Assembly: GCF_000188055.2 (NCBI RefSeq)
Contig: NZ_AEUZ02000001.1
Coordinates: forward strand, 1,254,001 to 1,318,000
Origin: Streptococcus urinalis 2285-97
GTDB lineage: Bacteria > Bacillota > Bacilli > Lactobacillales > Streptococcaceae
Direction: 5' to 3'
DNA length: 64,000 nucleotides
In this document: one piece after another, positions 50,567 through 53,488 of the stretch
Layout of the letters: each line of letters starts with the position of its first letter
How positions within the stretch are numbered: position 1 is the stretch's first letter
Program-made: the position numbers and the translations under genes
Notes under the pieces: model-generated
The model's input: the letters and a program-made list of their open reading frames with translations, nothing else
Told to the model about the DNA's origin: nothing
Database searches by the model: none

Positions 50567-51331
50567 TCAATCAAAAAATTGATAATAATCAGCAATGGAC
50601 ATATTTTCTTTTGCTTCTTTATTTAAATCATTAATGATTTGCCCATTTTTCATGAGAATAACTCTGTTGCCATAAGTTAAAGCATCTTCCATATGATGTG
50701 TAATCATCAAAGCTGTCAATGCTTGTTTTGTAACAAACTCATCAGTTAGTTTCATTAAAGAAACACTTGTTTTAGGATCTAAAGCTGCTGTATGCTCATC
50801 AAGTAATAATAAATCTGGACGTTTCAAAGTTGCCATTAAAAGGCTCAATGATTGCCTCTGACCACCTGAGAGTAAACCAGTTGGTGTATTTAAGTGTGTT
50901 TCCAAACCATTTCCAACTCGTGAAATGAGAGACTTATATTCCCCTTCAAATTTTGTTAACTGTCTTGATTTAAACAGTCTTTTTTGACCTCTTTGTTGTG
51001 CAACTAATAAATTTTCAGCTACTGTCATTCGAGGAGCAGTTCCCATTTTAGGATCTTGAAAGACACTTGACAAATATTTAGCTCTTTTTTCAGCTGGTAG
51101 ATGAGTCACATCTTCACCTAAAATTTGGATAGTACCACTAGTCAATAGCAACGTACCAGAAATCACATTGAATAAAGTTGACTTCCCAGCTCCATTACCT
51201 CCTAGAATTGTAATAAAATCATGTTCATATATTGTTAAATTAACATGATCAAGAATTAATTTCACTTCATTATAGCCATTGTTGACAGCAACTGTTGCGT
51301 CAATGAGTTCTACTATTTTTTTCTTTGTCAT
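50567..51331 (-). CDS. ABC transporter ATP-binding protein (aromatic amino-acid importer)
   Basis: 254-residue ATPase: Walker A GGNGAGKST, Q-loop, LSGGQRQSLSLLMA signature, LLLDEHTAALDPK (Walker B with an EH in place of EP) and H-loop MITHHME. It energises the permease and binding protein encoded just upstream. Its start region (51329–51350) is duplicated: a 22-bp unit carrying the SD and ATG occurs twice, separating this gene from the permease stop. Intact coding sequence. Confidence 0.85.
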   Translation of the reverse strand: MTKKKIVELIDATVAVNNGYNEVKLILDHVNLTIYEHDFITILGGNGAGKSTLFNVISGTLLLTSGTIQILGEDVTHLPAEKRAKYLSSVFQDPKMGTAPRMTVAENLLVAQQRGQKRLFKSRQLTKFEGEYKSLISRVGNGLETHLNTPTGLLSGGQRQSLSLLMATLKRPDLLLLDEHTAALDPKTSVSLMKLTDEFVTKQALTALMITHHMEDALTYGNRVILMKNGQIINDLNKEAKENMSIADYYQFFD

Positions 51332-51372
51332 TTTGTTAATTGCACTCCTTCATTTTGTTAATTGCACTCCTT
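51329..51372. repeat. Perfect 22-bp tandem duplication at the transporter permease/ATPase junction
   Basis: A 22-base unit (51329–51350 and 51351–51372) begins CATTTTGTTAATTGC and contains the ribosome-binding site AAGGAG and the ATG on the minus strand. The upstream copy makes an ATG overlapping the permease stop (ATGA) that now opens a 5-codon mini-ORF. Confidence 0.9.
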
Positions 51373-52219
51373 TAAATATCTTTTTCTTAAAGACTGGTAC
51401 CATTAAGCAAATTGCTAAGACGATGGCACTGAACAATTTAAGGTAGTTGGTATTAAATCCTAAACTAATAACAGCTGTAATCAAGAATTGATATAATATT
51501 GAACCTACTACTATAGCAATAAGACGTTCAAGTAAAGTAAGATCAATTGAGTAAAGAACTTCACCAATAATAATACTAGCTAAACCAATGACGATAACAC
51601 CGATTCCTTTTGAAACATCAGCATAGCCATCTTGTTGACTAACTAATGCACCAGAAAGTGCAATTAAACCATTTGAAATAACAAGTCCCATAACTTCCAT
51701 CTTGTCCGTTGAAATCCCAAAACTTTTTGCCATATCGTGATTATCACCTGTTGCAATGTAAGCTTGTCCTAAATTTGTGTATAAGAAGAAAATAAGACTA
51801 GCTATGACAAGTACAACTACAATTAATCCAAGAATGAGTAAATTCAGATCAGATTGAAATGGGAAAAAGTCTTTTAATGTTTTAATATCAACCAGTCCTA
51901 AGTTTGGTCTTTTCATAACCATGAGCATAATCGAATTACAAGAAGTCATGACTAAAATTCCTGCCAAAATAGTTGGAATTTTTCCTTTGGTATAAAGTAA
52001 TCCTGTTACCAAACCAGCCAAACAACCAGAAAGCATACCAGCAATAGTTGCTAAAACTGGATTTATGCCATGATTCATCAGTGTCACAGCGACCGCACCA
52101 CCTAATGGGAAGGAGCCTTCCGTTGTTAAATCTGGGAAATTGAGGATTCTAAAAGTTAAGTATATCCCCAACCCTAAAATTCCCCATAATAAACCTTGTG
52201 ATACTGCAGAAATTACCAT
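51350..52219 (-). CDS. ABC transporter permease (aromatic amino-acid importer)
   Basis: 289 residues with about eight hydrophobic segments, of the branched-chain/LivH-type permease fold used with DUF534/TrpX binding proteins. The conserved EGSFPLGGAV and GLVISNGLIALSGALVSQQDG motifs are present. Only one permease gene is found, so it presumably acts as a homodimer. Sits 19 bases after the binding-protein gene; stop at 51350 overlaps the duplicated ATG of the ATPase leader. Intact. Confidence 0.85.
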   Translation of the reverse strand: MVISAVSQGLLWGILGLGIYLTFRILNFPDLTTEGSFPLGGAVAVTLMNHGINPVLATIAGMLSGCLAGLVTGLLYTKGKIPTILAGILVMTSCNSIMLMVMKRPNLGLVDIKTLKDFFPFQSDLNLLILGLIVVVLVIASLIFFLYTNLGQAYIATGDNHDMAKSFGISTDKMEVMGLVISNGLIALSGALVSQQDGYADVSKGIGVIVIGLASIIIGEVLYSIDLTLLERLIAIVVGSILYQFLITAVISLGFNTNYLKLFSAIVLAICLMVPVFKKKIFKGVQLTK

Positions 52220-52238: not shown

Positions 52239-53234
52239 CTACTTCACCGCAATATCAGCTTTTTTAGCTAATTTTTCAGGTATATCAATGCCTAATTCTC
52301 TAGCAACTTTTAGATTTAATGTTGGTGTCCCTCTGTCCACAACTTTTACAGGAACTTGAGAAACCTTTTTACCAGATAAGATTTTTATAGCGACTTTTGC
52401 GGTTTCAACACCTAATTGGTATTGATTTTGTGCGATTGAAGCAATGCTTCCTTCTTTAACCATGGTATCTACACTTGAATAGATAGGTATTGATTTTGCT
52501 TTAGCAGCTGTCACTACTGTCGAAAATGCACTAGCAATGGTATTATCCTGAGGAACAAAAACAGCATCCACGCGACTTGTCATGACTGACATGGTTGTTG
52601 CAATTTCATTTGTTGATGGAACTGCAAATTTTTCAACTTTTAAACCAACTGTTTTGGCTTCTTTTTCAAATTGTGCTACTTGAGATACAGAATTATCTTC
52701 ATTACTAGCATAGAGAACACCAACTGTTTTGACATTAGGTGTCAATTCTTGAATGAGAGAGACTTCTTGCTTTATAGGAAGTGAATTTGATAACCCTGTC
52801 ACATTACTGGTTGGTTTCTTCAAATTTTTGACAAGTTTTGCACCAATTGGATCCGAAACAGCTCCCATCACTACTGGAATATCTTTTGTAACAGATGCTA
52901 ACCCTTGAGCAGCTGGTGTTGCAATACCAATGAGTAAATCATTTTTATCTTGAACCAATTGTTTACTCATGGTTTGGATTTTACTTTGATCAGCTTGCGC
53001 ATTCATTAATGTCATTTTGACTTTTTTTCCAAAATAACCACCATCGGCCAAGCCATCTTCGACACCTTTTTTAATCTGGTCTAAAGCCTCGTGTGTCACA
53101 TACTGCAAAATACCGATTTTAACAACTTGATTTTTAGAACCTCTTTGGATTTGATTTTTATTTTCTGAAATAATTGATCCTATTACTAGAAGCGTTAATA
53201 CAATCAAAGTCCCAATTAAACTTTTATTTTTCAT
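52239..53234 (-). CDS. trpX: ABC transporter substrate-binding protein, TrpX type
   Basis: 331 residues of the DUF534/TrpX binding-protein family. N-terminal membrane anchor (SLIGTLIVLTLLVIGSIIS, no lipobox cysteine), two periplasmic-binding lobes (KIGILQYVTHEALDQIKKG…; VFVPQDNTIASAFS). Homologues in streptococci are described as binding tryptophan or other aromatic amino acids. The leader region encodes a Trp-containing peptide ahead of a terminator, which independently points to tryptophan. First structural gene of the trpX–permease–ATPase operon. Confidence 0.82.
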   Translation of the reverse strand: MKNKSLIGTLIVLTLLVIGSIISENKNQIQRGSKNQVVKIGILQYVTHEALDQIKKGVEDGLADGGYFGKKVKMTLMNAQADQSKIQTMSKQLVQDKNDLLIGIATPAAQGLASVTKDIPVVMGAVSDPIGAKLVKNLKKPTSNVTGLSNSLPIKQEVSLIQELTPNVKTVGVLYASNEDNSVSQVAQFEKEAKTVGLKVEKFAVPSTNEIATTMSVMTSRVDAVFVPQDNTIASAFSTVVTAAKAKSIPIYSSVDTMVKEGSIASIAQNQYQLGVETAKVAIKILSGKKVSQVPVKVVDRGTPTLNLKVARELGIDIPEKLAKKADIAVK

Positions 53235-53269
53235 GGATTTCCTTTACTCTTTTCTTTTAAAATTCATAC

Positions 53270-53300
53270 AAAAAAGCACCTAGTATTTCTACTACGCGCC
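53270..53300 (-). terminator. Leader (attenuator) terminator upstream of trpX
   Basis: On the mRNA GCGCGTAGTA (53299–53290) pairs with TACTAGGTGC (53285–53276) with one mismatch and one G–U, then six T's (53275–53270), 36 bases before the trpX start. Its 5' arm can instead pair with TATGCGC at 53329–53323. Confidence 0.8.
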
Positions 53301-53324
53301 TTTTTTTATTAACTAAGAAACTGC

Positions 53325-53367
53325 GCATAGATACTTTTTAGATGTACTCTAAAAGTCGTATCTATGC
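53325..53367 (-). promoter_or_regulatory. Long leader hairpin competing with the attenuator
   Basis: GCATAGATAC and GTATCTATGC (53367–53358 and 53334–53325) make a perfect 10-bp stem, extended by TTTTAGA/TCTAAAA around a 5-base loop. The 3' arm overlaps the TATGCGC that can pair with the terminator's 5' arm, and its GTATCTAT can also pair with TATAGATA at the end of the leader peptide frame. Confidence 0.7.
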
Positions 53368-53386
53368 AAAATTCATAAACACAACT

Positions 53387-53431
53387 TTATCTATACCAGC
53401 TTTGCCAAGATTGTAAGTGTTTTTGAGTCAT
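53387..53431 (-). CDS. Tryptophan leader peptide (14 residues)
   Basis: ATG 53431 to TAA 53387–53389 encodes MTQKHLQSWQSWYR, with two Trp codons near the end. A good ribosome-binding site, AAAGGAAG, precedes it by eight bases. It lies between the promoter and the attenuator hairpins of trpX. Trp is the rarest residue, so W-Q-S-W in a 14-residue frame at this position is strong evidence of a ribosome-stalling sensor for charged tRNA-Trp. No homologous T-box sequence is seen. Short, so translation needs direct testing. Confidence 0.75.
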   Translation of the reverse strand: MTQKHLQSWQSWYR

Positions 53432-53460
53432 TTCTTAGTCTTCCTTTCATTTTTTTAATT

Positions 53461-53488
53461 ATTATAAAATAAATTCAGAATATTGCAA
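53461..53488 (-). promoter_or_regulatory. Promoter of the trpX operon leader
   Basis: TTGCAA (53483–53488), 16-base spacer, TATAAT (53461–53466). Start expected near 53454, giving a leader of about 220 bases. Confidence 0.7.

Follow-up and report, generated by a model that had tools for sequence, protein, structure and literature searches.

In the trp attenuator of Escherichia coli, a short leader peptide with Trp codons precedes alternative antiterminator and terminator structures, and the ribosome acts as the sensor. Among the Firmicutes, leader-peptide attenuation has experimental support for the Leu-rich ilv attenuator of Staphylococcus aureus, as described in the available part of the report (PMC5794164), and His leader peptides were predicted in 2010 and in 2022 (PMC2965389; PMC9413887), with Lutispora thermophila named in the accessible text of the latter. 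The trpXYZ genes of Streptococcus suis are controlled by a T-box, according to the available text of PMC9382623. Finally, the trpB motif (RF04312) comprises more than 900 RNAs in Firmicutes and Fusobacteria, most often positioned before an uncharacterized ABC transporter; the accessible part of its description files it as a strong orphan riboswitch candidate with structure covariation, places an antiterminator in the right shoulder of hairpin P1, gives no known ligand, and allows that a protein or conventional attenuation might be at work instead (Narunsky 2024, PMC11109978).

The window analyzed here, a 64,000-nucleotide stretch of the Streptococcus urinalis 2285-97 genome, contains an element upstream of trpX that is very probably a transcription attenuator run by a ribosome on a 14-codon leader and sensing charged tRNA-Trp. 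It shares with the E. coli trp attenuator a Trp-codon leader, alternative structures, and a ribosomal sensor, but would have an extra step, in which the stalled ribosome leaves a first segment free to pair with a second and so frees a third for a fourth; unlike in E. coli, the leader codons themselves can also pair with the third segment. The likeness to the S. aureus ilv attenuator is one of mechanism, namely leader-peptide attenuation, as far as the available part of that report goes (PMC5794164). With the S. suis T-box, as described in the accessible text, our reading has in common the operon, the signal (uncharged tRNA-Trp), and transcription attenuation, but there the tRNA is bound directly by the RNA and no leader peptide is involved (PMC9382623). 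In the open-access literature, outside which most subscription papers lie, we found no report that unites the leaders described below, adds the stem formed by segments 1 and 2, or accounts for the trpB motif through a leader peptide; some of the His members were predicted earlier.

Organization of the trpX leader

The importer genes are transcribed from the minus strand. The trpX gene (52239 to 53234, with its ATG at 53234) codes for a substrate-binding protein that scores 462.3 bits against NF041285 (cut-off, 390), and it is followed by an ABC permease gene in the trpY position (51350 to 52219) and an ABC ATPase gene in the trpZ position (50567 to 51331); the permease matches permease models, all below their cut-offs, and the ATPase matches ATPase models, those shown also scoring below cut-offs. 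A megablast comparison with phage records gave no match for the trpX region.

The initial annotation described a leader frame, a hairpin, and a terminator before trpX, and all three are confirmed. The leader (MTQKHLQSWQSWYR plus a stop, 14 codons; 53387 to 53431, minus strand) begins with an ATG at 53431-53429, has UGG codons at 53407-53405 and 53398-53396 (W9 and W12), and ends with a stop at 53389-53387, and its coordinates were verified and the frame is kept in relatives. A Shine-Dalgarno AGGA at 53445-53442 on the same strand is separated from the leader start by ten bases, and the frame thus combines a ribosome-binding site with several codons of the regulated amino acid. A promoter had also been proposed, and promoter-like hexamers (TTGCAA-16-TATAAT; 53461 to 53488, minus strand) are indeed present and match at 10 of 12 positions, but they do not exceed chance (1 match found, 1.7 expected), which makes the promoter weak by itself.

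Hairpin P1 (53324 to 53368, minus strand) is that of RF04312, as shown by the Rfam match, folding, and covariation, and the U-tailed terminator (53270 to 53300, minus strand) is backed by the Rfam match and by folds, although a simple terminator scan reported none at the window leader. Together they match RF04312 from 53264 to 53368 on the minus strand with 75.1 bits (gathering threshold, 59), and the window leader folds far better than its shuffles (z, −6.54). The window element has P1, the terminator, and an antiterminator in the right P1 shoulder in common with the trpB motif as described in the available text (PMC11109978), but the RF04312 model starts 3' of the leader frame and segment 1, both of which the window element includes.

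Segment 1 (GUUGUGUUUAUG; 53374 to 53385, minus strand), which the initial annotation had missed, is a 12-pair complement of the P1 5' arm situated at and after the stop codon. It lies outside the Rfam model, and its pairing with segment 2 (CAUAGAUACGAC; 53355 to 53366, minus strand), the P1 5' arm identified by folding and covariation, is supported by duplex energy, covariation, and folding. Also missed was the ability of the leader codons to pair with the P1 3' arm; segment 0 (AAAGCUGGUAUAGAUAA; 53387 to 53403, minus strand), made up of the last leader codons and the stop, is an alternative partner of segment 3, although this pairing is less firmly supported. Segment 3 itself (GUAUCUAUGCGC; 53323 to 53334, minus strand) may pair with segment 0, 2, or 4, as suggested by duplex energy, covariation, and folding. 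Segment 4 (GGCGCGUAGUA; 53290 to 53300) forms the terminator 5' arm, and segment 5 with the U tract (53270 to 53285) forms its 3' side, both on the minus strand and both supported by covariation and folding.

In the window fold, the leader ribosome-binding site can additionally pair with the linker 3' of the hairpin (GACUAAGAAA with UUUCUUAGUU; 53311-53440, minus strand). As a general feature this pairing was rejected (mean z of −1.08 in 17 streptococcal clusters and −0.10 in 74 others), and it is possibly a local feature of the window fold, weakly supported in relatives.

Conservation of the leader frame and covariation of its segments

With an E-value limit of 0.001, RF04312 matches turned up in 32 of the 147 genomes searched from the genus, in 185 of 345 from the order, in 5 of 398 from the phylum, and in 9 of 196 from the class to which genome G504 belongs. 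Because the model begins after the leader frame, these matches permit a test of the frame. Trp occurs in the last 8 leader codons of 49 of the 50 fetched loci above the gathering threshold, and in the last 9 of the other (L053); nothing was dropped from this count, which is given because the lack of a leader was one ground for dropping weaker matches. Over the streptococci as a whole, a frame that follows a Shine-Dalgarno sequence and carries two or more Trp codons among its last 8 was called in 28 of 29 loci (0.0003 in shuffles; the shuffle rate for at least one Trp is 0.026), and in the 29th (L019) the frame was mis-called and WQNW is evident by eye. Such a frame is present in all 17 streptococcal loci above gathering, again with none dropped. 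Among the other Lactobacillales, a Shine-Dalgarno frame with one Trp or more in the last 8 codons was called in 71 of 79 loci (0.017 in shuffles). The remaining eight include four with Trp further from the stop (L053, L073, L077, and L079), one with Tyr/Phe codons (L104), one with Trp codons in an open frame that has no ATG, GTG, or TTG start (L109), and two that fail the Shine-Dalgarno rule (L099 and L101). The first UGG is identical in 46 of 46 aligned sequences, and W-Q-x-W-(H/R)-R-stop is common among Lactobacillales leaders. The initial annotation had named the absence of the Trp codons or the terminator from close relatives as evidence against attenuation; in the streptococci and other Lactobacillales both are kept.

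The counts for weaker matches follow removal of chance matches by eye, partly for the lack of a leader. Twelve matches with no fitting leader and segment 1 were set aside as chance (L028, L033, L034, L040, L041, L110, L171, L172, L176, L197, L221, and L222), among them the streptococcal L028, which is below gathering; 30 of the 32 streptococcal matches were fetched, and the order-level matches were fetched in part (25 by the search itself and 54 separately). Eleven duplicate loci were removed before counting, and L154, L155, L157, L161, L163, L205-L211 (refetched), L223, L224, and L266 (new) were left out of the counts. No locus was made for three matches from the family search with model R1 (described below), two from the R1 search of the window's class, and two from the genus RF04312 search.

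One copy with a Trp leader departs in its downstream gene. L042, the top-scoring RF04312 match of the order-level search (86.6 bits), has a reverse-transcriptase-like frame 439 bases on rather than trpX. This frame may belong to a group II intron inserted behind the leader.

The pairings were examined in 97 sequence clusters derived from 127 loci. The 1:2 duplex has a mean z of −3.66 over these clusters; in 60 of the 97 it is stronger than every one of 100 shuffles, and in 85 its start lies no more than 10 bases from the stop codon. When 45 sequences of all codon types are aligned, both sides change in 8 of the 12 pairs of the 1:2 stem, with a covariation score of 0.322 against 0.227 for shuffles (0 of 500 as high) and at most 0.131 for slid controls. 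The 2:3 (P1) and 4:5 (terminator) stems also covary above their controls, in line with the covarying stems anticipated by the initial annotation, and the 0:3 and 3:4 pairings are weaker. Both 3:4 and 0:3 surpass every shuffle in score and in cells, but in the number of pairs they are equaled or exceeded by 443 and 171 of 500 shuffles, respectively, and for 0:3 one slid control has more two-sided cells (13 versus 9). Their duplex energies have mean z values of −2.06 (0:3) and −1.94 (3:4), with all 100 shuffles beaten in 20 and 13 of the 97 clusters, respectively, and 0:3 is weak in the Asp type described below. When partners are swapped among 13 types (53 loci), the fraction as good as the native partner is 0.14 for 1:2, 0.18 for 0:3, and 0.24 for 3:4, and the native partner is the best of all in 21, 8, and 7 loci, respectively. 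Folding and covariation thus both point to mutually exclusive antiterminator and terminator structures, with covariation of 3:4 the weaker. Covariation in the Trp set alone was little informative because the arms are too conserved, and a 0:1 pairing that was tallied on the same alignment was set aside, the model having no need of it.

The strong conservation of the P1 arms is also what a metabolite riboswitch could display, with P1 or its surroundings binding an amino-acid-related ligand and thereby setting the terminator, and the trpB motif was published as a strong candidate with structure covariation, in the portion of the report available (PMC11109978). We nonetheless regard a riboswitch as unlikely. 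P1 is a simple hairpin, and its pairing with segments 0, 1, and 4 accounts for its conserved bases; it is preceded by a frame with matched codons, and these codons vary from gene to gene on an unchanged RNA core; the trpB motif authors themselves, in the same available text, did not exclude attenuation (PMC11109978).

Fold model of the proposed switch

In the proposed attenuator, segment 3 would have three alternative partners, namely the last codons of the leader (segment 0), the P1 5' arm (segment 2), and the terminator 5' arm (segment 4). When Trp is scarce, the ribosome would wait at W9 or W12, covering segment 0 and leaving segment 1 free; formation of 1:2 would then free segment 3 to pair with segment 4, no terminator would form, and trpXYZ would be transcribed. 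When Trp is plentiful, the ribosome would reach the stop codon and cover most of segment 1, such that 2:3 and 4:5 could form and transcription would stop. If no ribosome is present, segment 0 would hold segment 3, and 4:5 would terminate transcription. We infer from codons, pairings, and folds that ribosomes stall on the leader, that control is at the level of transcription, and that the operon responds to Trp in this direction.

This scheme was modeled by folding the RNA 3' of the ribosome up to segment 4, using equilibrium rather than cotranscriptional folding, with 79 of the clustered loci used for fold probabilities and 89 for footprints. For the window leader, the modeled probability of the antiterminator is 0.80-0.81 when a ribosome sits at either W9 or W12, 0.22 when it is at the stop, and 0.00 without a ribosome, and it falls between A-site codons 13 and 14. 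The minimum-energy fold 3' of a ribosome at W12 contains 1:2 (12 pairs) and 3:4 (8 pairs), plus two small stems. Over the 79 loci, the mean probability of 3:4 is 0.49 for a ribosome held on the first sensor codon, 0.21 for one at the stop, and 0.15 without a ribosome, and that of P1 (2:3) is 0.17, 0.76, and 0.51, respectively. Shuffling segment 1 changes the stall-stop gap from 0.285 to −0.047, and shuffling segment 0 changes the stall-none gap from 0.337 to 0.203; with the ribosome edge at +9, +12, or +15, the stall-stop gap is 0.200, 0.285, or 0.287.

The initial annotation envisaged Trp attenuation by a ribosome-sensing leader, and codon-gene matching, a split in the importer tree, and the fold model all support this; one correction is that by the assumed footprint a stalled ribosome does not reach the hairpin, and the switch therefore needs segment 1. 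With the same footprint, a ribosome at the first sensor codon leaves segment 1 free, covering no more than 2 of its bases, in 87 of 89 loci, and one at the last sensor codon does so in only 58 of 89, and at least 6 of its bases are covered in 84 of 89 with the ribosome at the stop. There are exceptions, with 13 of the 79 loci showing the opposite stall-stop change in the fold model and a further 13 lacking a clear one; the change is absent from L037 and L104, the Asp-type L127 reaches a 3:4 probability of 0.64 even without a ribosome, and in L035 and L160 the leader continues past the sensor codons into segment 1.

Most window ribosome positions before codon 14 give an antiterminator probability of 0.33-0.81, as might be expected if the leader sensed translation generally, through a slow ribosome or poor initiation, and the Trp codons were merely a bias. 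We consider general sensing quite unlikely, as the match between codons and genes is far above permutation and includes two differently coded copies in one genome.

Leader codons, downstream genes, and T-boxes

The same layout occurs with other codons. Six of the nine weak RF04312 matches in the class of G504 share it, with His, Tyr, or Phe codons. A scan of named genomes for the P1-arm pattern, which makes no use of the frame, gave 26 stretches, of which 16 are such leaders and ten were dropped for lack of a leader (L131, L135, L138, L140, L141, L144-L147, and L152). Twelve of the 16 have Asp codons (NRDDD, once NRDED; mostly in Lachnospiraceae), with an aspartyl-tRNA synthetase gene behind 11 and a contig that ends too soon in the twelfth, and four have HHH or HHHHH, including that of Lutispora thermophila. 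A model built from 45 sequences (R1), which extends over segment 1 and the final two or three codons of the leader, found 24 matches in 20 of the 291 genomes searched from the class of G504 (some of them in the training set), 34 in 23 of 59 genomes of one family, 32 in 18 of 180 genomes of the window's class, and matches in 4 of 299 genomes of the phylum. At the gathering threshold, RF04312 itself matches none of 39 non-Trp loci scanned, and the weak scores are illustrated by the Asp-type L137 (none at an E value of 1) and the Tyr/Phe-type L225 (24.7 bits).

The codons follow the genes. HHHHR precedes HisZ or HisRS, and His codons also precede hisD; FYFSYFR precedes TrpX paralogues and AroE; Trp leaders are found before TrpB too; genome G1088 carries both FFFSFFR and YYCNYYR leaders before sodium symporters; and LLLLAELL precedes a symporter-like gene (L175) in a genome that also has a Tyr copy (L038). 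Gene identities come from NCBIfam or Pfam for a subset and from similarity to those for the rest. Among 145 clusters, 33 have a gene of one clear amino acid (the TrpX, symporter, and permease classes being left out), and the codons match the gene in 28 of these, compared with a permuted mean of 6.0 and a maximum of 12 in 2,000 permutations. The five misses are L035 and L160, in which most of the His run falls outside the final ten codons, L165 and L195, where the frame was not called but His codons are seen by eye, and the Asn-rich L167 before AspRS. This supports the initial annotation as right in kind, with Trp being one of several specificities.

Several loci are less simply read. L167 and L168 have the leader MLNFQFIKLNNGYNI, with Asn in place of Asp codons before an aspartyl-tRNA synthetase gene, and perhaps sense tRNA-Asn. 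L173 has an HHHR leader and the RNA core, with no clear his gene directly behind. L216, L229, and L179 have Tyr/Phe leaders, with L229 before an aminotransferase gene; the gene behind L216 is presumably transketolase-like and that behind L179 we take to code for a BrnQ-like transporter. At these three loci the leader codons might predict substrates.

The diversity of codons also bears on nascent-peptide arrest, for which TnaC is the precedent: WQSW(H/R)R together with free Trp would arrest the ribosome at the stop, and the gene would respond to high Trp. Although the W-Q-x-W-(H/R)-R-stop ending is common in Lactobacillales leaders, other members have HHHH, DDD, YYCNYY, FFFSFF, or LLLLAN instead, and the leaders thus have no arrest peptide in common. 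The genes, which code for importers, synthetases, and biosynthesis enzymes, are moreover expected to be on when the amino acid is scarce, and the last-codon bases can be explained by the 0:3 pairing, and we judge arrest very improbable.

The window's own genome carries a second copy outside the window, found with R1 (L265; contig 1, 1963804-1963931; 60.7 bits; leader MVNHSTAQITNKRYYFSFFR). It precedes two TrpX paralogues (308 and 356 bits, below the NF041285 cut-off) and a permease gene (locus 1960500-1964600), and this operon is probably a Tyr/Phe importer. The five relatives with Tyr/Phe leaders that were scored fall below the cut-off of 390 (308, 319, 332, 352, and 384 bits). In a tree of 57 binding proteins (45 of the 96 with Trp leaders and all 12 with Tyr/Phe leaders), the two leader types split at one branch (support, 100/99), compared with 11.1 changes needed for shuffled labels.

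The same operon is controlled by a T-box in S. suis, as the available text describes (PMC9382623). Within the genus, 58 of 59 genomes have a TrpX locus above the cut-off, and in the 30 best-scoring loci, which were inspected, RF00230 is matched in 16, the attenuator is found in 5, both in none, and neither in 9, at the thresholds used. A T-box leader at the window locus, like that before trpXYZ in S. suis and S. pneumoniae, is extremely improbable: an Rfam covariance-model scan gave no RF00230 match in the window, as the initial annotation had read by eye, and the two elements never occur together in those 30 loci.

A second Rfam family is connected with the Tyr/Phe type. RF02863 (sRNA_2410) matches at gathering 5 of 20 scanned non-Trp loci (L227, L228, L231, L232, and L177), which are of the Tyr/Phe type and lie before aroE and a symporter-like gene, and L225 scores 49.5 bits, below the gathering threshold of 61. 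RF02863 is filed as an Enterococcus sRNA, but as judged from sequence it reads here as a leader, perhaps in its terminated form. The His members resemble the Firmicutes His attenuators reported earlier, with a His-codon run before his genes, and the Lutispora thermophila leader is our L142; the two reports, in their available portions, treat His alone (PMC2965389; PMC9413887), whereas here His, Trp, Asp, Tyr/Phe, and Leu occur on one RNA core. We found neither this unification nor the extra stem in the literature searched.

We favor, with fair but not high confidence, the interpretation that these leaders are one homologous RNA device spread through the Firmicutes, a ribosome-read counterpart of the T-box with a five-segment core. 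Its sensor codons would also serve as the strand keeping the switch off, its specificity would have changed repeatedly (Trp, Tyr/Phe, His, Asp, Leu, and perhaps Asn) by joint change of the codons and the complementary strand, and it would swap with T-boxes before the same operon; the trpB motif and sRNA_2410 would be pieces of this device. The codon swaps provide a natural test of switch reprogramming, and leader codons could help to assign transporter substrates, for example, of TrpX paralogues with Tyr/Phe leaders. If this interpretation is correct, leader-peptide attenuation in the Firmicutes would form a modular class that has five or more specificities and uses the same bases as codons and as pairing strand, and the function of an orphan riboswitch candidate with more than 900 representatives would be settled without a ligand, a warning against ligand hunting.
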